A stretch of DNA of 64,000 bases. Source: Planctomycetota bacterium. Its GTDB lineage: Bacteria; Planctomycetota; UBA1135; GCA-002686595. The stretch is from NCBI GenBank assembly GCA_028823345.1, contig JAPKBR010000003.1, positions 62,001 through 126,000 on the forward strand, read 5' to 3'. Both the position numbers and the translations under genes were made by a program. The notes under the pieces were generated by a model. The model did no database searches, was not told the DNA's origin, and saw nothing but the letters and a program-made list of their open reading frames with translations. Below, one piece after another: positions 7,867 through 19,455 of this stretch. How positions within the stretch are numbered: the stretch's first letter is position 1; the number at the start of each line of letters is the position of its first letter.

Positions 7867-9687
7867 GTGCAGGACTCCCCCACCCCCAACAGAACTCCCT
7901 GGCTGGGGCTCTTTCTCCTGCTGTTCTCCTCTGCGAGCCTGCGCCTTTTCCCCATCCAGCACGGCCTGCCGGACAATCATGTGCCAGATACGCATGTGGT
8001 GAAGGCTGCTCTAGGTATGGCCCAGGATCGAGATCTGATTCCTCCCGTCGGACGCTGGAGCACCTACCCCAACCTCTTGCCCTATGTGTTGCTCCCATGC
8101 TATGCGGGTCAATTTGCGCTGGGGCGTATGAACGGAGAGTGGCGCAATCCCGACGAGTATGCCAAGGCAATCAAGTCGAGCCCCGGGCGCGCGCACCTCT
8201 TGGCCCGTATCGTGCTCGCCCTGATCAGCGCCCTCGCCCCGATTTTTGTGGTGCTCGGTCTGCGCGCCGCCGGGTTCGGCTGGGGAGCATGGTGCGGAGG
8301 ATGGCTCAGCGCGTCATCCCTCTTGCTGGTGCAGCTTGCCACACACGAACGACCATGGGCGCCCCTTGCAACATTCATTGCCCTCAGCATGTGGCCCGCG
8401 GCAATCCATGTAAGGACCGGTGCAGCGCGACCCTTGCTGCTCTCCGGACTTGCAGCAGCCCTTGCCTTCAGTACACATCAGGCAGGAGCCTTCGCGATTT
8501 TGATCCCGGCCATCGCCTGGGCCAGCACAACCCAGAGTTGGCAAGGAGCCGGCCTCAAGGAACGAATGCGCGTGGGATTCATCTGCGCGGGATTATTCCT
8601 GGTGGTGGCCCTCACCATCGGGCACCCCTATTTGATTCGGCACGGAATGACACCCACCGATGCGGTGGCGGCCGGTAGCCAACTAGAAGGATCCCAACAC
8701 GTTTCCATCGGTGGCCAATCTGTAATCTTTCAGCTTTCTGCCGAGACCCTTCAAAAGCTCAGCAAGGCCTTAGTGGGATATGACCCGTTGCTGTTGATCT
8801 TGGCCCTGCTTGGATTTGCCGCAGGTCTCAAGCGTCGTGAGACCCGGCCGGCGACGGGCTTTGCCCTCATCTGGGGCTTGTTCTTTTTGACCAACCAGAA
8901 CGACCATGTGCGCTATCTGGTTCCCCTGGCCGTGGGATTGGCCTGGCCTGCGGGAATCGCCTGCGAGAGCCTCCTACGTAAACCCCTGCCCCGCACCCTA
9001 CTGCTGCTGGGGTTCTGCCTGCCCTTGGCTCAGGCCCTGCGCCTCGGTGTCATCCTGCGCCGCCCGGACACCAGGGCCATGGCCCAGGCGGAACTCTTGC
9101 AACAGCAGGGGAACGAGCCCATTGCTGAAGGGGTCGGCGGACCCCATTTAGCACTCAGCCGCACGGCTCTCCACCGCCTGGCTCAATTACGCGACCTGCG
9201 CACACGCGAACTGTACCGTTTGGTGATCTTGGATGAAGGGATTGAGCCGGAGAGCGGCTATGGCCTCGACGCCCTGCCCCTTGAAGATGTATTCGAATTC
9301 GACCCGCGCCACCACGCATCCTGGCCCCGGAAAAAAACTATAGAGCGCCTCGGTAAAGACGCCAACGACCCCATCATGGTGCTGCGCGCCTTCGGCTGCG
9401 ACACGATTCTGTTGGCGGACCGCACGCCCCTGGACGGGCATCCGCCCATGCTCATGGATCGGCGGGAGGCAACCCAAGAACCGGGGCCGGACCTCAGTTT
9501 GCACCCAGAGGGCGTCCGTCCAAGACTCAAACCCCTTGCCCTGCCTCCGCGCCCTTTGGCCAGTTGGAGTCCAGGCAAGAACGTCAGCGACGCACGCCTG
9601 CCCCTAGAGCTCGGCTTCCCTCTAACAGAGCTCTGGAAAATCGAACGACCCGGTCCCCTGCTGCAGCTTTATCGGGTCCCGCGCTGA
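7867..9687 (+). CDS. GT-C type multi-spanning membrane glycosyltransferase-like protein
   Basis: This 606-residue protein has about ten to twelve hydrophobic segments over residues 7-410, followed by a soluble C-terminal part. Near the N-terminus, [16 protein letters not shown] lies after the first membrane segment, where GT-C enzymes (PMT, ArnT, GT39-like families) carry their acidic catalytic motif. The overall plan resembles the dolichyl- or undecaprenyl-phosphate sugar-dependent mannosyltransferase-like proteins common in planctomycetes. The start is a GTG; there is no clear ribosome binding site. It is divergent from the M28 gene. The sugar donor and acceptor are unknown, and assignment to one GT family would be a guess. 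Confidence 0.65.
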
Positions 9688-9741: not shown

Positions 9742-9829
9742 GGAGGAGTGGCAGAGTGGCCGAACGCGGCGGTTTTGAAAACCGCTGACTCGAAAGGGTC
9801 CGGGGGTTCAAATCCCTCCTCCTCCGCCA
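9742..9829 (+). tRNA. serT: tRNA-Ser (anticodon UGA)
   Basis: The acceptor stem GGAGGAG pairs with CTCCTCC, followed by discriminator G and an encoded CCA. The anticodon loop TTTGAAA sits in the stem GCGGT/ACCGC and gives anticodon TGA. A long variable arm (CTCGAAAGGGTCCG region) and the TTCAAAT T-loop fit a class II serine tRNA. The length of 88 bases including CCA is normal. Confidence 0.95.
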
Positions 9830-11077: not shown

Positions 11078-13555
11078 CTATTGCACCAGTTCACGCAGGA
11101 CCTTGCGGCCTTGAATCAGTTTTTCGAGTTCGGCGTTGTTCCGAGCGCGAGCAGCTGAGAGCACCGCGAGGGCACGGCCCGAGTCCCCTCCAGCAACCAG
11201 GCCTTCCACTGTGAGCACAATCATCCAGGGGTCCTCGGGGGTCCGCAAGAGAACCTCGGCAGCCAATTGTCCGGTGCGCACAGCGTCCCCTTGGCCATCC
11301 GTCACAAAAACCAACAGACGCTGCAGCTCGGGCACATCGGGGGTGGCGGCAAGCTGCTCCAGCAAAAGTAACTCTGCTTGTCCACCGCGCTCGGTTCGCA
11401 TCCAGAGGAGAGCCAAGCTATAGGTGGCTCGCCCTTCACTAGGGTCGAGGGCGCGTGCTTCTTGGATCAGAGGCTCGGCCTCGGCGTATTCCCCGGCCGA
11501 AACAAGACTGATCCCCAAGTTGACCAGGGCGCGCAGGTGGGTTGGTTCGATCCCGAGCGTCTTACGATAGTGCCCGCGCGCTTCCTCGGGCCTCTTCAGG
11601 GCCTCTACCACCACCGCCAAGTTGAACCAAGCGTCGGCAGAGAGCGGATCAGCATCGAGCCCCTTGCGAATGGCAGCCTCAGCAACCACGTCCCTTCCGA
11701 GTTGGTGCTCTAGGTGGCCGATTCCAACCCAAGCCTCGGCGGATCGTTCATCGATGACAAGCGCCCGCTCATATGCAGCCCGTGCCTCCTTGAAGGCACC
11801 GTCTTCGGTGAGCCAGTCTCCCTCACGCACCAAGGGCAAGGGGTTCAGCGGATCCATCTTCTGGGCCTTGGCCAGACGTTCTCGCCAGGCACCCAGCCCC
11901 ACCTCACGCTCGATCTCGGCCAACTCTAGCCAATCGGTAGAAGTCGCACCCGCCCCCACGACCGTGGACTTCATCCACTCCAGAGCCTCCTCCGTACGGC
12001 CCAATTGCCGCAAGACTTCTCCCCGGGCCGTACGCAACATGGCATCCCCGGGCTCTTCCTCCAAGAGCATCAGGATCGCCTCCTCGGCCTCTTCGAAGCG
12101 GTCGGAGCGCACCAATTCCTGGACAACCTGGCTGCGCCCCCAGAACGTGACCTTGTCTTTCGGGTCCGAAAGGGGGCCATCTGACATATTGCCCTCCGCC
12201 GCACCGCTGGCATAACCCAGGGCAGCAAGGGTTTCCGCCACTTCCAGGGAGTCCGACCCCGCGTCCACCCTGCGCACATCCATCTCCCCGTCGGACAAGA
12301 GTTCTTCCAAGTCATCCCCCATCTCCTCGAGCCGCGCCCCCTCATCCTTGGATCGATCAATCAGTTCTTCGGGATCATTCTTCAAGTCATAGAGTTCCGG
12401 ACGGGGTGCACGGATCGAACGCCAGCGATCATTCCGCAAACTCCGAAGATCCGACCAGCCATGGTCAAAGAAGCTGGACATACCTTCCGAGTAGGCGCCA
12501 GCGCCGGTCTCCAGAGGTTCCCCCCCCATGCACACGGAGCCGTGGGAGCGGCCGTCCATAGGCACGGACGGCGTGCCCAACAATTCCAACACGGTCGGAG
12601 CCAAATCCGCTCCGCTGACAACCCCGGACACGACGGTTCCCCCTGTCAGGCTTGGATGGGACAAGATCCAGGGCACGTGGATGGTGGCGTCATACACGAA
12701 CAAGCCGTGGCTACGCTCTTGGTGTTCCCCAAGGGCTTCACCATGATCCGCTGTGAAAGCGATCAGGGTATTGTCCAACTGACCACGCCGTTTTAAATCC
12801 TCCAGCAAGACCCCCAGCATGTGATCGCTGTAGGCGATTTCCGCATCGTAAGGATTGGGCACATCCGAGAAAAATGGCTCGGGGGCCTCGTAGTCCGCGT
12901 GGGGATCAAAAAGGTGCAACCACAGGAACCACGGTCCCTCTTGCACCCCATCGAGGAATTTCTGAGCCCTTCGCACCCCATCATCTGCCCGGGTTTCGCG
13001 AAACATGAACAAGGGCGCCTGGACCGCCTGGCTCAAATCGTCGTCGTACACATCAAAGCCCCGGGCAAGGCCAAAACGAGAATCCAGCACAAAGGCACTG
13101 ACCACGGCGCCAGTGGTGTAGCCCTCTGCCGAGAGCAAAGTGGACAAAGTAGGCACGTCCTCTGGGAGACGGTGGGTGCCGTTATTGCGTGCCCCATGGT
13201 TGAAAGGCAGCCGGCCCGAGAGGATCGAGGCATGTGACGGCAGGGTGATCGGTGCCACGCTCATGCAGTATTCAAAGCGCACGCCCCCCGCGGCGAGGCC
13301 ATCGAGCACCGGCGTCACAGCTCCCGTGTACCCATAGGACCCAAGGTGATCCGCCCTGGTGGTGTCCAGGGTAATCAACAACAGATTAGTCTTGGGGGGC
13401 AGATGGTCAATGGACTGGCCGCCACAGCTGATAAAACTCGCCGCGCTCAAGACCGCGACACCCAGACCAAACACCATTCTCGGGAGTTTGGTCAACCGCC
13501 GGGAGGAAGAATCGCAACCCATCACAGGTCGTGCAGCAATTGAACGGGAAATCAT
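11078..13555 (-). CDS. Sulfatase-fold hydrolase fused to TPR repeats, probable lipoprotein
   Basis: The protein joins an alkaline-phosphatase/sulfatase-fold domain (about residues 55-430) to C-terminal tetratricopeptide repeats (about 490-825). Metal-site motifs are LLLITLDTTRADHLGSYGY and FTADHGEALGEH. The nucleophile position reads TLPSHASILSG, so the CxPxR or SxPxR sequence needed for formylglycine formation is absent and a Thr sits at the nucleophile site. That suggests a phosphate-ester hydrolase or transferase rather than a true sulfatase. TPR units include LRTARGEVLRQLGRTEEAL and AEAWVGIGHLEHQLGRDV. The segment VFGLGVAVLSAASFISCGG looks like a lipoprotein signal. The start is uncertain: ATG 13555 is used, with 13522 also possible. 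Confidence 0.8.
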   Translation of the reverse strand: MISRSIAARPVMGCDSSSRRLTKLPRMVFGLGVAVLSAASFISCGGQSIDHLPPKTNLLLITLDTTRADHLGSYGYTGAVTPVLDGLAAGGVRFEYCMSVAPITLPSHASILSGRLPFNHGARNNGTHRLPEDVPTLSTLLSAEGYTTGAVVSAFVLDSRFGLARGFDVYDDDLSQAVQAPLFMFRETRADDGVRRAQKFLDGVQEGPWFLWLHLFDPHADYEAPEPFFSDVPNPYDAEIAYSDHMLGVLLEDLKRRGQLDNTLIAFTADHGEALGEHQERSHGLFVYDATIHVPWILSHPSLTGGTVVSGVVSGADLAPTVLELLGTPSVPMDGRSHGSVCMGGEPLETGAGAYSEGMSSFFDHGWSDLRSLRNDRWRSIRAPRPELYDLKNDPEELIDRSKDEGARLEEMGDDLEELLSDGEMDVRRVDAGSDSLEVAETLAALGYASGAAEGNMSDGPLSDPKDKVTFWGRSQVVQELVRSDRFEEAEEAILMLLEEEPGDAMLRTARGEVLRQLGRTEEALEWMKSTVVGAGATSTDWLELAEIEREVGLGAWRERLAKAQKMDPLNPLPLVREGDWLTEDGAFKEARAAYERALVIDERSAEAWVGIGHLEHQLGRDVVAEAAIRKGLDADPLSADAWFNLAVVVEALKRPEEARGHYRKTLGIEPTHLRALVNLGISLVSAGEYAEAEPLIQEARALDPSEGRATYSLALLWMRTERGGQAELLLLEQLAATPDVPELQRLLVFVTDGQGDAVRTGQLAAEVLLRTPEDPWMIVLTVEGLVAGGDSGRALAVLSAARARNNAELEKLIQGRKVLRELVQ

Positions 13556-13871
13556 GGGGAATTCGTCGGCCTGCAGACCTCGTCGTCTACGCAGAAGGGA
13601 TGGGCCATCATGTCTCAAGGAAAGATCCAAGCCAAGCGCATCTCAGAATGAAAAATGCGCTTGCCCTCAGAGTGTCTCAAATGTGAGCCAGTCGATCGAG
13701 TCCCAGCCTTGAATCCCTCAAAACTGAGGATCCATGCCTAAACGGACCCCTGAAAGCGCAAACCTCCCCGCATCCCTGTCATTCCCCGGACTCTCTGAGT
13801 CCTGCTAAGCCGCCCGGCCTCATCCCGGGGCGATTCGCCCATCTCAGGGGAGCTTCATCTTCCACTGGATC
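13556..13871. other. Intergenic stretch, no gene seen
   Basis: About 316 bases lie between the sulfatase/TPR start chosen here and the stop of the upstream gene. If the ORF-track start at 13630 is right the gap is 241 bases. It is C-rich, has no convincing ORF, no clear repeat and no obvious promoter hexamers. It probably holds the promoter of the downstream gene. Confidence 0.5.
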
Positions 13872-14981
13872 CTAGAAGATCCAGACCATGCCCTCGGACC
13901 AGGCTTCGTCGGCGACTTTGGACACAACTACCACGGCCAATTCCAGGCTGGGATCATCGCGCCTCATGGCCGATTCCAGTGGCGCCTGCTCAGGCAAGAT
14001 GACGCTCATTTCAAGGTCCTGATTCTCGCATACTTCGAATCCAGGACAAGCCCAGCGTTGGTTGCGGGCGCGCAATAGGAGACGGTAACGGCCGGGACGG
14101 ACCGCAGGCCAAATACCAGGTCCACTTCGCAGCCTGCCCGCGGGGATCGCATAGACCTTGCGCCAAGCAAGGTCTTGGGATTCCACCACATTGGGCAGCC
14201 TAACTCGGCGCTGCAATTCAAAGCTCATGCCCGAAAATTCGCCCTCGGGCAACAGGCGGTCGAGAGTGAATTCCACGCGCAAGCCGCGCTCGATGTGGAT
14301 CTCCACTTCGTGCCGGCCAGCCACAAGGGTGCGAGACGGGCCGTATTCCCCAAAGGCCATACCCACGGGGCCTACGGAGATGCGCCAGTTGCCTGGTTCG
14401 AGTGAGGGAGAACGGAAGGCTCCTTCAAACGTGCAGCGCGAACGGGGCAAACGAGCACCGTCCAGTTGAGTCTCGGGGTGCTCGGAGCCTTCAGGCAAGA
14501 ACCACACGTCTAATGAGCCACTCGGACCCCCGTGTCGCTCCACCAAGTGCCCCTGCACCTGAGCGAACTTGCCGCCGAGGATCTGGACCTCTATGGATTC
14601 CCCCTCGGGCACAAAGACTGTTTTTTCGTTGCGCACACCAGCAGCCGTTTCGAGCGCGACAATCCAGGTGCCCGCCTGAACCAGCACCCAAATCCCGGGT
14701 TCCACTTCGCGCTCTTGCCCCACTCCGTCTGGCAATGCCGCGCTCATGAAGACACGATCTCCATTGGCGGGGTCGAGGGAGATCACCTTCAGTCGGGTAC
14801 TGACGGACACCAGCGGGAGCGGGCCCGAATCCGAGTCTACGGCTGTGGTTGCCATAGCCTTTACCCCGCTGGTTTGCGAACCACCAAGGGGTAAGACATC
14901 GCCCGGGGGCGCGGCCACCTGCCAGATGAATCCGGACAAGATCAATAGAACAGGGAGGATTAGGGCACGGGAGGATACCAT
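13872..14981 (-). CDS. Exported protein of unknown function with beta-sandwich character
   Basis: The 369-residue product has an N-terminal hydrophobic signal (LILPVLLILSGFIWQVA) and then a beta-rich sequence with repeated phrases such as EPGIWVLVQAGTWIVALE, LEPGNWRISVGPVGMAF and VRPGRYRLLLRARN. These PG-W/Y-x-hydrophobic units are typical of carboxypeptidase-regulatory-like or Cna-B-like folds, but I cannot name the family. It sits directly downstream of the STT3-like gene (83 bases) on the same strand, within the envelope block. An adhesive or glycan-related surface role is only inferred from context. Confidence 0.6.
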   Translation of the reverse strand: MVSSRALILPVLLILSGFIWQVAAPPGDVLPLGGSQTSGVKAMATTAVDSDSGPLPLVSVSTRLKVISLDPANGDRVFMSAALPDGVGQEREVEPGIWVLVQAGTWIVALETAAGVRNEKTVFVPEGESIEVQILGGKFAQVQGHLVERHGGPSGSLDVWFLPEGSEHPETQLDGARLPRSRCTFEGAFRSPSLEPGNWRISVGPVGMAFGEYGPSRTLVAGRHEVEIHIERGLRVEFTLDRLLPEGEFSGMSFELQRRVRLPNVVESQDLAWRKVYAIPAGRLRSGPGIWPAVRPGRYRLLLRARNQRWACPGFEVCENQDLEMSVILPEQAPLESAMRRDDPSLELAVVVVSKVADEAWSEGMVWIF

Positions 14982-15064
14982 CCTGTAAGGATCGGTCGAA
15001 TCCTGTGGGGGCCTTAAAAGAGGGCGCTACAGTCGCCCCGGATGCCTCAAATTGAACCACGCCC

Positions 15065-17293
15065 TTAGGCATCCGAAAGCAGCAGAACGGTCCTTCCTTC
15101 CTGTACGTCTGCTTCGGTGACTTGAGCGCTCCCCTTGAGCCCGCCGCAGCTCCAGCGCAACTCTTCCCCCACCACGTCTCCCGCGGCTTCGCCGCCGCTG
15201 GGGTAGGGCCAACGGACGCACGCCTCCCCATCAGGCCCGGCTTTGGCGCTAGCCCGGTGCATCAATCGGTGCCCGTCGGGCAAGATCAAGGGCAAGGCAA
15301 CCTGCAAGACATCACCAGGATTCACCCTGGCGACGAGGTTCGCTCCGGCCACAATCCGGTAAATGCGCGCTCCGGGCTGGGGGTGGGGGTCCTCCGTGTG
15401 GACACGGTCGAAGAGCTCGCGAGGTGACTGATGAACGAGCTGTAAATATCCCGGCACGTCGCGCATCTCCAGCAAGCGCTGCACTAGCGCATCATCGGGC
15501 ATTGTTGTTATGCCCAGGTTTTGGAGCCAGGGCACTAGGTTGCGTTGCCAACGGCTCGTCACCAACAGGTGACTGACCTTGAAATTCGCAAGAGATTCTC
15601 GCAGCTCTACATCATCAGTGCTGGCCAAGGCTACCCATGGGGCGCGGAATACGTCACGTCCTAGGTAGGCGCCAAAGTTGCTCGCCAGAGTCCTACGCCG
15701 GGCGAGCCATTCAATCCCGTGCCCCAGATCCCACTGGGCGAGCACCGCCCAGTCACTGCCGGGATCAGGTTGCTCACGCAACCAAACACATGCCTCGCGC
15801 ATGCTGCGATGGGACGAAAGAGTCGCGGACTCCTGGTCCCCCATTGCCCGTCCCTGGGTCCAGCCCGGCGCCCCATGGGGCAGCCAACCGTGAACGGCCA
15901 ACAGCAAGATAAGCGACGCCATTGAAGCCCACAGGGGCCGACGGGCCACCGGCTTGAGTGACCCAAGAGCGACTCCCGCCAAGATCCCCATCAAGGGTAT
16001 TAAGGACTCGGTGAAGCGTACCTGCATGAAGGCGGCTAACAACGCCCCAATAAACATGAGGCGCCAAAGAAGCAGTCCCTTCCGCCAGGGAAAAAACAAA
16101 CCACCCAGGGCCAACAAAAGCCCCGGCCCGGTCCAATTCAAGAGTGCCGCCCCCGGCGCACGGCTCTCCCCTATCACCCCCATGAACTCGTCCCGGGCAC
16201 TTAGCCACGCCAAGCCCCGCATAAAGCCAGCTTGGGCTTCCCGGGGCACGTCGGCTAGGACCCAACCACCGACCATCAGCACAAGAAGGCCGCGCGACGC
16301 CAGGGGGTTCTTGGACCCAAAGGCCAATGGCAAGAAGCTTAGCCCCAAGCCACCCGCCAACAACGCCTGCAACATAGATGGTTCCAGCAAACGATCCGCT
16401 GGCCAGGGACTGGTCAGTCCCATGGGCACGAGGAACAAGGCCACGGCGCAAAAGTACAAGAGCGCCGTACGGGCCACCTCTCGGCGGCGAAGAGAATCAC
16501 GTTCCGCACGCCAACATGTGTGACCAAAAAAGAGCACCCCCATCCCGAGCAAGCCCAGGCATGGCAACCAAACCGAAACCCCAAGGGCCAGCACGCCTGC
16601 AGCCAAAAGAGTCCGGACCAAGGGGACGCCAAGGCCGCCTCGCTTGACCAAGCCATCGAGCAGCAGCAGGCTGAGGATGATGAGCCCAGAAGCCAAGGCG
16701 TGGTGATCACCCATGCCAAGAAACGAGTAACGCAGGGCAGCGGGAGCGAGAGCCACGATTCCTCCCCCCATGGCGGCCGCGGTCAGCCCCCCCTTGCCCC
16801 CCACCAACCACGCGGCCGCAACCGCCGCGACCAAAGCTTGCAACACACCGAAGAGAACTCCGGAGGAGCCCACAAAGACCTCGACGAAAGCGTCCCTCTC
16901 GGGCCCCGCCTGCTTGGGTGCAAAGGGCGTTGCAGCAAGCCAAAGCAGCCGGGTGAAACCCGAGGGCCAGGGGATTGGCGCTCCCCGGGGATCTTCCAAG
17001 ACCCCGCTCAACTTTCCGGCGGTCAGCAGGGGATCACGCCCAGCGATCTGCCCTCCGTCTGCGAGCGCCCGCTCCAGCCGGCGCATGTGATAGTGCCCAT
17101 CAGGATCAAAGGTCCCAAAGCTCGTACCCTCTGCCACGGCTAGACCCGGCTCTAAGACCGTACGCGTGGTAATGCGCGTCGTGAGAGCAAGAACCGCCAC
17201 GCCAATCAAAACCAAGGCAAGCCCGCCCCGGGGAAGCGCTCCATTTGACGGGCCCGAGATCAATCCTCTCGCACCCTCAGGAAACGCCGGCAT
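15065..17293 (-). CDS. STT3/GT66-like membrane oligosaccharyltransferase
   Basis: The 742-residue protein has about twelve membrane segments and a soluble C-terminal domain, the plan of single-subunit oligosaccharyltransferases (Stt3, AglB, PglB). Their four motifs are recognisable: an acidic first loop DPDGHYHMRR (63-72), a second acidic site GDHHALASG (195-203), a VIGE sequence (372-375) at the place of the SVSE/TIxE loop, and QWDLGHGIEWLARR (520-533) at the place of WWDYG. In the family the enzyme moves a lipid-linked glycan to Asn in secreted proteins. The ORF-track ATG overlaps the upstream gene by 34 bases; a TTG at 17263 would make a TTGA overlap instead. The acceptor specificity cannot be told from sequence. 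Confidence 0.75.
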   Translation of the reverse strand: MPAFPEGARGLISGPSNGALPRGGLALVLIGVAVLALTTRITTRTVLEPGLAVAEGTSFGTFDPDGHYHMRRLERALADGGQIAGRDPLLTAGKLSGVLEDPRGAPIPWPSGFTRLLWLAATPFAPKQAGPERDAFVEVFVGSSGVLFGVLQALVAAVAAAWLVGGKGGLTAAAMGGGIVALAPAALRYSFLGMGDHHALASGLIILSLLLLDGLVKRGGLGVPLVRTLLAAGVLALGVSVWLPCLGLLGMGVLFFGHTCWRAERDSLRRREVARTALLYFCAVALFLVPMGLTSPWPADRLLEPSMLQALLAGGLGLSFLPLAFGSKNPLASRGLLVLMVGGWVLADVPREAQAGFMRGLAWLSARDEFMGVIGESRAPGAALLNWTGPGLLLALGGLFFPWRKGLLLWRLMFIGALLAAFMQVRFTESLIPLMGILAGVALGSLKPVARRPLWASMASLILLLAVHGWLPHGAPGWTQGRAMGDQESATLSSHRSMREACVWLREQPDPGSDWAVLAQWDLGHGIEWLARRRTLASNFGAYLGRDVFRAPWVALASTDDVELRESLANFKVSHLLVTSRWQRNLVPWLQNLGITTMPDDALVQRLLEMRDVPGYLQLVHQSPRELFDRVHTEDPHPQPGARIYRIVAGANLVARVNPGDVLQVALPLILPDGHRLMHRASAKAGPDGEACVRWPYPSGGEAAGDVVGEELRWSCGGLKGSAQVTEADVQEGRTVLLLSDA

Positions 17294-19224
17294 TCCCCGG
17301 CCACAATCCCAAGAGCCTCCCGCTGCTCCTCAAAATGCGCCTCTCGATCCAGCATGGGGTGCCAATCCGAGTCATAGACGGTCAGGAAGTCTCGCTCGGG
17401 AATCAGGGGCAAACTAAAAATACCCGAGGTGGTCCAAACTCCGAGGTGTGCCCAAGCGCCCATCACTCGCACCCGTTGCTTTGGAGGATCGAACAGGCTC
17501 TGTCCGAGGCTGTACCCCGCGCGGTGTTCCGGATTCACACCCAAACACTCCAACAGAGTGCTGGAAACATCCAAGTGACTGGTGGGCCGCGACTCCACAC
17601 CAACCTCGATACCGGGACCCGACATGAGGAATGGCACGGCAACCTGTGCTGGTGTGAAGTTCGACGTATGGCCCCAATAGCCGTGCTCGCCAAACTCCTC
17701 CCCATGGTCGCCGGTGACGATCACAAGGGGCTCGGCCTCGCCTTCGTACTCGTCCAAGGCAGCGAGCAATCGGCCGGCCACCGCATCACTGTGGTGCACC
17801 GCGTTGCGATAGGTATTGTGCACCTCTTCGCTCAGTTGTTCCTGTTCAGGGCCCGGGGGAGTCGTGCCCAAATCGATGTAGTTCAGGTTCTCGAGGGCCG
17901 GCTGATAGGGACCACCGGGGTTGAAATAGGGCTGGTGGGGCGAATCGAGAAGCACAAAGCAGAAGAAGGGCTGTTCGGAATCCCGTTCCGCAAGCCACTG
18001 CTCAAAGGCCTCGGCCACCAGGACATCTTTGACATCCGAGCGTCGAGTACGAGGCCTCCCTTCCCCATCAAGGAACCGGTCGGTCACCTGCCCGGGATCC
18101 AGGCTACTCCAGGCAGTCAGCTTGAACTCGGGGAAACTCATGGAAGCGGCCGAGAACACGCGCACCTCATAGCCAGCAGCCACCAGGGCAGTGACTAGCA
18201 CCGGCGGCACGCCCTGTTCTAAAATGTACTCCCAATAGGAACCGTGCAAGCCATAGAGCATGCCGAGCAAACCGAACCGCGTCGCATTGCCACTGGAAAG
18301 ATGATCCTCGAAGCTACGGGCGTTCTGGGCGAAAGCATGCAGGTTCGGGGTCAGTTTCGGGCCGAGCGCATCCTGGCGCCAAGAATCCAACACGCAGATC
18401 AACACATCTGGATTCCCTTGATCGGGGGGGATCACCGGTTGAATTTGGGGCCACGCAATTTCGGTGTTCGCCGGGCGCAGGTGCTCACCGAGCAAACCCG
18501 CACCCACCGGGTCAGCTATTTGGCTAGGGCGAATCTTGAGCCCCGGCAAACCACTGGTCGCAGCCAGCACTTCGGTCTCACCTGTCCATTCTGCAGCACC
18601 CCAAACGGCTTTTTCCAAAACGACCAGGGGCATCAGGAAAACCAGAGACACGAAAGCGGGGCGCAGCAACAACCGGGAACGACGACCAACCAAAATGCGC
18701 TCGCTCTCACTCTTCACACGCCAGTTCCAAAACAACATCTGCATGAAAGTCGCGGTCAAGAAAACCAAAGCCGCGGTGACCCAAATGTAGGGGCCAAGAA
18801 CCAGCGCGTCCCCGGAGCCCTCGGTCATCACCAGATTGACGAAGGTCTCGTTCAGGTGATAGCGCATGATCCGGAACACCACCGTGTCGGTGTACAGCAG
18901 AATCAGGAAGGCGCCGCCGGCCATGGCCTGCAAGGTGCCGATCCAGCGCCAAGGAATTCGTAGGCGTAGGGCGATGGCGAACAGACTCCCCGGCACGAGC
19001 CCAAGGATGAGCACACTGGAGATCAGCGAAAAGGCGGTGTAGATCCGGATCCAGGGGGCCAGGTCCGCTGGCTCTCGAACCAGCCAGAGGCTCCCCACGA
19101 GGGCCCCACCCACCACCATCAGGAGCCAGAGCTGGAATGACGCATAGACCAGGGCGGGCCGGGGAGGGACCGCTTTCAGAGGTGCTACGGGCGAGGAAAA
19201 GGGGAGGCGGGGCATAGCGGACAT
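17260..19224 (-). CDS. YejM/PbgA-like inner-membrane protein with sulfatase-fold domain
   Basis: The 654-residue protein has five or so N-terminal membrane helices (about 27-235) and a periplasmic alkaline-phosphatase-fold domain (about 270-600). The domain has VLICVLDSWRQDALG, LSSGNATRFGLLGMLYGLHG and IVTGDHGEEFGEHGYWGH. The SSGN...GL.GxxYGL...Y stretch closely resembles the signature of YejM (PbgA/LapC), the Enterobacterial regulator of LPS synthesis. The metal-binding residues appear intact, so a catalytic role is also possible. It is the first gene of the run continuing into the STT3-like gene, with overlapping ends. This supports an LPS- or glycolipid-bearing envelope. Confidence 0.78.
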   Translation of the reverse strand: MSAMPRLPFSSPVAPLKAVPPRPALVYASFQLWLLMVVGGALVGSLWLVREPADLAPWIRIYTAFSLISSVLILGLVPGSLFAIALRLRIPWRWIGTLQAMAGGAFLILLYTDTVVFRIMRYHLNETFVNLVMTEGSGDALVLGPYIWVTAALVFLTATFMQMLFWNWRVKSESERILVGRRSRLLLRPAFVSLVFLMPLVVLEKAVWGAAEWTGETEVLAATSGLPGLKIRPSQIADPVGAGLLGEHLRPANTEIAWPQIQPVIPPDQGNPDVLICVLDSWRQDALGPKLTPNLHAFAQNARSFEDHLSSGNATRFGLLGMLYGLHGSYWEYILEQGVPPVLVTALVAAGYEVRVFSAASMSFPEFKLTAWSSLDPGQVTDRFLDGEGRPRTRRSDVKDVLVAEAFEQWLAERDSEQPFFCFVLLDSPHQPYFNPGGPYQPALENLNYIDLGTTPPGPEQEQLSEEVHNTYRNAVHHSDAVAGRLLAALDEYEGEAEPLVIVTGDHGEEFGEHGYWGHTSNFTPAQVAVPFLMSGPGIEVGVESRPTSHLDVSSTLLECLGVNPEHRAGYSLGQSLFDPPKQRVRVMGAWAHLGVWTTSGIFSLPLIPERDFLTVYDSDWHPMLDREAHFEEQREALGIVAGECRRFLRVRED

Positions 19225-19365: not shown

Positions 19366-19455
19366 GGAGAGGTGGCAGAGCGGCTGAATGCGCGACATTG
19401 CTAATGTCGTGACCTCGTAAGGGGTCCGGGGGTTCGAATCCCCCCCTCTCCGCCA
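19366..19455 (+). tRNA. serV: tRNA-Ser (anticodon GCU)
   Basis: The acceptor stem GGAGAGG pairs with CCTCTCC, followed by discriminator G and an encoded CCA. The anticodon arm CGACA-TTGCTAA-TGTCG gives anticodon GCT. The long variable arm and the TTCGAAT T-loop are as expected for a serine tRNA of 90 bases. It is a second, different serine isoacceptor, about 9.5 kb from tRNA-Ser(UGA). Confidence 0.95.

Follow-up and report, generated by a model that had tools for sequence, protein, structure and literature searches.

Characterised bacterial oligosaccharyltransferases come chiefly from Campylobacter-like groups. In a published tree, only a few bacterial sequences fall within the euryarchaeal branch (PMC4973528), and AglB-like enzymes of planctomycetes are not described in the literature searched, whose coverage was partial. 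The metal site of the Archaeoglobus fulgidus enzyme (AfAglB) comprises D47, D161 and H163, the latter two within an Asp-His-His second motif, plus E360 of the TIXE motif, and its QNRF segment places R426 near the phosphate site (PMC8342417). The WWD of the WWDYG motif builds the pocket for the +2 Ser/Thr of the acceptor (PMC7226087), and mutation of the first Trp of this motif in Campylobacter jejuni PglB (W457S) inactivates N-glycosylation (PMC3527161). For YejM, also called PbgA or LapC in enterobacteria, Thr302 is a conserved active-site threonine (PMC7576196). The locus considered here brings relatives of these two families together.

The window, that is, the whole stretch of 64,000 nucleotides analysed, belongs to contig C61 of a 3.5-Mb planctomycete metagenome-assembled genome that is 88% complete. 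Positions 11078-19224 hold four long ORFs, all on the minus strand, transcribed in the order YejM-like, AglB/STT3-like, exported beta-rich and sulfatase-fold/TPR (Table 1). An earlier note on this DNA had described four co-directional genes encoding a YejM-like membrane hydrolase, an STT3-like enzyme, an exported protein and a sulfatase-fold/TPR protein; the ORFs lie where it placed them, and all four descriptions stand, the third protein being exported and without a family match. The first two genes probably form an envelope module, in which AglB-like glycan transfer to an exported acceptor would be combined with YejM-like handling of a phosphate-bearing partner.

Table 1. Features of the locus, in window coordinates.
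Feature	Position	Strand	Basis or conservation
YejM-like inner-membrane protein, 654 aa; N-terminal DUF3413-like membrane domain plus alkaline-phosphatase/sulfatase-fold periplasmic domain	17260..19224	-	PF00884, PF11893, NCBIfam YejM, PDB 5i5h
T315 of YejM-like protein, nucleophile-equivalent (YejM Thr302)	18280..18282	-	invariant in 10
D506-H507 of YejM-like protein, metal-ligand pair (LtaS D475-H476 equivalent)	17704..17709	-	invariant; E. coli YejM has AGRG here
Overlap of YejM-like stop and AglB-like start, 34 nt	17260..17293	-	ORF coordinates
AglB/STT3-like oligosaccharyltransferase homologue, 742 aa; about 13 predicted membrane segments and a soluble C-terminal domain with an AglB_L1 beta-barrel at its end	15065..17293	-	TIGR04154, PF18079, PDB 3waj, hydropathy
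D65 of F-DPD-xxYHxRR, first DXD motif; AfAglB D47 equivalent by motif spacing	17099..17101	-	24/24 conserved
D196-H197-H198, second DXD motif, archaeal D-H-H form	16700..16708	-	25/25; aligned to AfAglB D161-H162-H163
E376 of TIXE-equivalent (V-I-G-E-S)	16166..16168	-	25/25; aligned to AfAglB TIAE
W521-D-L-G-H525, WWDYG-equivalent, Q520 instead of first Trp	15719..15733	-	W, G and H in all 25; D in 20 of 25; first Trp in none
Exported beta-rich protein, 369 aa; module membership uncertain	13872..14981	-	no Pfam/NCBIfam match; only in L033-L036
Sulfatase-fold/TPR protein, lipoprotein-like signal (FISC); probably separate gene	11078..13630	-	PF00884 1.2e-43 plus TPR; split from the others in L036

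On homology, the 742-residue protein is a divergent member of the archaeal-type (AglB) oligosaccharyltransferase family. Taken alone, it matches TIGR04154 (archaeal STT3, NCBIfam) at 2.3e-14 and PF18079 (the AglB_L1 barrel, Pfam) at 6.2e-5, both below the model cut-offs (52.7 against 450 bits and 23.5 against 23.6, respectively). A family profile (A1), made from the alignment of 25 planctomycete homologues from the order, matches A. fulgidus AglB-L (PDB 3waj) at 1.7e-32 over both the membrane and the soluble domains, and human STT3A at 5.9e-10, which bears out the STT3-like identity proposed earlier with homology far above chance. All 25 family members match TIGR04154, 19 match AglB_L1 and AglB_core(-like) models, and 13 match PF02516; used by itself on the window genome, this last model overlooked the protein, which TIGR04154 and the custom profile detected. 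Hydropathy averaged over the family has 13 peaks, and a structure prediction from six sequences (pLDDT 46.5, pTM 0.32) was too poor for use. Profile matches to the AglB family occur in 20 of 294 sampled Planctomycetota genomes, so that homologues of this kind are sparse in this phylum sample, in line with the earlier note, which had called STT3 homologues uncommon in bacteria outside Campylobacter-like groups, and the window genome carries one copy by this measure. Given that the WWDYG motif is incomplete, the claim is of a divergent AglB homologue predicted to work like an oligosaccharyltransferase, rather than of a proven N-oligosaccharyltransferase.

The motifs of this protein account for both halves of that wording. 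In the profile alignment to AglB-L, the DHH, I-x-E, QxRF and WDxGHxIE segments are all in register, with GDHH falling on D161-H162-H163 and WDLG on WWDYG, the superposition that had been proposed as a check; D65, whose region lies outside the PDB alignment, was placed through its D-x-x-Y-H spacing. The earlier view that all four family motifs are altered holds for the first Trp of WWDYG and the Thr of TIXE, both lost, and fails for GDHH, since D-H-H is the standard archaeal form (PMC8342417). The TIXE Thr position varies within the family, the Glu being kept in every member, and Q424-x-R426-F427, the counterpart of AfAglB QNRF, is likewise present in 25 of 25. The WWDYG region reads VLA-x-W-D-x-G-H-x-I-E across the family; the complete motif is found in no member, the second Trp and the Gly being universal and the first Trp uniformly missing. 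A M-x-x-hydrophobic pattern, a candidate for the DK or MI motif of the kinked helix, was seen by eye in several relatives, the window protein not among them.

In five of the 25 sequences D522 is replaced by Ser or Gly, and such loss of canonical residues near WWDYG in some members might be taken as the mark of a decaying, inactive AglB relic kept through linkage to a housekeeping locus. All of the metal and catalytic residues are invariant, though the sequences diverge widely, most of them sharing 24-35% identity with the window protein, and this makes a relic very improbable. More distant planctomycete homologues (L072 and L075) retain WWDxG, so loss of the first Trp looks derived, and the ancestor was probably a normal N-oligosaccharyltransferase. 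The enzyme might thus still be a canonical one, glycosylating Asn in N-X-S/T, its pocket filled by residues nearby and its gene tied to the YejM-like one by co-transcription only; D65 and E376, which in AglB activate the acceptor Asn, are, like W521 and G524, invariant, and D522 remains in 20 of 25. This reading is nonetheless unlikely, if less so than the relic, in view of the first Trp being absent throughout and of the inactivity of PglB W457S, on account of which N-oligosaccharyltransferase activity is not to be assumed for the window protein. Because every member of the subfamily lacks that Trp, the +2 Ser/Thr pocket has probably changed, and the enzyme would be expected to recognise an acceptor signal other than strict N-X-S/T. 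Catalysis is thus probably kept and acceptor recognition probably changed, as far as motifs can predict.

Set against AglB-L of A. fulgidus (PDB 3waj, 5gmy and 7e9s) and TIGR04154, the window protein has in common the membrane domain, the D-H-H, I-x-E, QxRF and WDxGHxIE segments and the C-terminal AglB_L1 barrel, but it lacks the first Trp of WWDYG and the Thr of TIXE, resides in a bacterial host and is coupled to a YejM-like gene. It also differs in that no exosortase was found in its genome; an archaeosortase/exosortase link, prompted by the name of TIGR04154, was considered and dropped, PF09721 being absent from this 88% complete assembly. With Campylobacter PglB it shares the single-subunit bacterial type and, judging by sequence, the same catalytic logic, whereas its second motif is the archaeal D-H-H (D-x-D in PglB), its C-terminal barrel is of AglB type, the first Trp that PglB requires is missing, and no pgl-type cluster was seen at the window locus.

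The partner protein carries a DUF3413-type N-terminal membrane domain fused to a sulfatase-fold domain, matching PF00884 at 1.1e-28 and PF11893 (DUF3413) at 2.5e-8 in Pfam, the NCBIfam YejM model at 4.7e-31 (107.7 bits, far under the 825-bit cut-off) and PDB YejM at 3.7e-18. A profile of 10 sequences matches PDB YejM 5i5h at 1.5e-43 over the membrane and soluble domains, in two aligned stretches, and also LtaS (3.1e-7), EptA (1.8e-6) and MCR-1 (about 7e-6). Within the alignment of these 10 sequences, D280, T315, D506-H507 and H519 are invariant. A protein without a nucleophile, which A314 at the position of YejM Thr301 might imply, was rejected, as T315, itself invariant, is the counterpart of Thr302. 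The window protein thus shares with enterobacterial YejM the N-terminal membrane domain, the sulfatase-fold domain and the Thr302 equivalent, and differs from E. coli YejM in keeping the D-H metal ligands and in adjoining an AglB gene. With the LtaS/EptA/MCR phosphotransferases it shares the metal-ligand and Thr active-site pattern, its membrane domain being of YejM type. Since the D-H pair is kept here and absent from E. coli YejM, the protein resembles an active LtaS/EptA-class enzyme more than YejM itself, and its active site looks LtaS/EptA-like and more complete than that of E. coli YejM.

This kinship with YejM and with LtaS/EptA-type lipid enzymes, together with the altered acceptor pocket, raises the prospect that the transferase passes its glycan to a non-protein acceptor, a lipid or cell-wall polymer, with the YejM-like protein as a lipid-handling partner by analogy with the part YejM plays in LPS homeostasis. 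Strict retention of E376 and D65, the residues by which oligosaccharyltransferases activate the Asn amide, tells against such an acceptor, as does the fact that no ligase-family match is reported for the AglB-like protein in Pfam or NCBIfam; we regard this reading as distinctly improbable. For the AglB-like gene, a role in glycan transfer at the surface, most likely to protein, remains the interpretation that fits best.

The association of the two genes extends well beyond the window. They overlap here and overlap or abut in most relatives, and the pair occurs in eight genera of one Planctomycetota family, directly adjacent in seven of them; in G008 about 1.6 kb separates the two genes. The carriers are G000, G001, G002, G004 and G005 of the window's own genus, G007, G008, G019, G023, G024 and G028, and G195/G236. 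The usual neighbour of the pair is the same divergent PEGA-MurD-UVR-ClpC block, and the AglB proteins paired with YejM form a single clade (99/99, in 100% of bootstrap trees). The locus can also hold a YejM-like orthologue and no AglB gene (G016, G035, G011, G017 and G018), and other lineages have AglB relatives that are not next to YejM; consequently, the pairing is best described as an old, stable association of one lineage and not as an obligate one. The search for all four genes, which the earlier note had called for, thus recovered the YejM-STT3 pair in eight genera, whereas the beta-rich and sulfatase/TPR genes are not kept at this place beyond the genus. The block is not a four-gene unit, and in the closest relative an adhesin-like gene splits it. 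That relative, L036, whose AglB protein is 93% identical, has an opposite-strand gene for a 1,023-residue Big_9/cadherin-like protein between the beta-rich and sulfatase/TPR genes, which puts the sulfatase/TPR gene outside any conserved unit; its candidacy as a member of the block was rejected on this synteny. The beta-rich protein, which has no family match in Pfam or NCBIfam and whose gene was found only in the window's genus (L033-L036), may be a genus-level accessory or client.

In the mechanism proposed for the pair, the AglB-like gene product would be a single-subunit, archaeal-type oligosaccharyltransferase of the inner membrane, holding a divalent metal through D65, D196 and H198, with E376. 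It would transfer a preassembled, polyprenyl-phosphate-linked glycan on the periplasmic side to an exported acceptor, of which a protein is the likeliest kind, with a signal expected to be non-standard relative to strict N-X-S/T. The YejM-like gene product, presumably co-produced with the transferase, would be a metal phosphotransferase or phosphatase of the YejM/LtaS/EptA class with T315 as its Thr nucleophile, and may have as its target a phosphate-bearing component of that pathway: the carrier lipid, the head group of a phospholipid or the glycan once transferred. The sulfatase/TPR gene is left out of the module. The window genome encodes four candidate glycan-priming transferases (PF02397) and four flippase-like proteins (PF01943), sets that are compatible with lipid-linked glycan assembly without identifying the donor; among the genes immediately around the pair, none was recognised as serving glycan assembly. 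A bolder and more tentative proposal, possible rather than probable, is that this planctomycete branch of archaeal-type enzymes gave up the Ser/Thr +2 pocket and glycosylates another peptide signal, or else an acceptor that is not a peptide, while a YejM/LtaS-type phosphotransferase, dedicated to it and catalytically competent, modifies the glycan or recycles the lipid carrier.

A planctomycete branch with intact catalytic residues and an edited acceptor pocket would broaden the range of bacterial glycosylation. The function of WWDYG could be probed in it by a natural experiment, and enzymes that follow new acceptor rules might be drawn from it. The tight link to a YejM-like enzyme whose active site looks complete bears on the enzymatic role of YejM-family proteins. 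These bacteria may have a form of surface decoration that has gone unrecognised.

Several further observations concern the same families and their surroundings. A sister family has an AglB-like gene after a DUF5916 (CBM9-like) gene (L042 8842-19665, L043 8532-14019 and L044 6663-11079), L042 and L043 also having a MutY-like gene close by; this is a separate conserved neighbourhood of the AglB-like gene. Tandem AglB-like paralogues occur at L050 7339-11962 and L112 4469-9173, a further copy lying elsewhere in the same genomes (G031 and G337). At the PEGA-MurD-ClpC locus of G018 (L110 8576-12291), two YejM-like genes stand in tandem and an AglB-like gene was not detected. At the site of the Cys of formylglycine sulfatases (C-x-P-S-R), the sulfatase/TPR protein carries Thr (TLPSH) and is therefore unlikely to be a canonical sulfatase. 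The Big_9/cadherin-like repeat protein of L036 (12547-15618, minus strand) has a shorter piece as its counterpart in L034 and is absent from the window. Two tRNA-Ser genes on the plus strand flank the block about 9.6 kb apart (9742-9829 and 19366-19455, anticodons TGA and GCT). Finally, a 606-residue polytopic protein encoded on the plus strand at 7867-9687, 1.4 kb outside the block, matches TIGR04154 (0.0055) and PMT_2 (0.58) weakly; it is a possible GT-C glycosyltransferase, and it keeps the same place across the genus.
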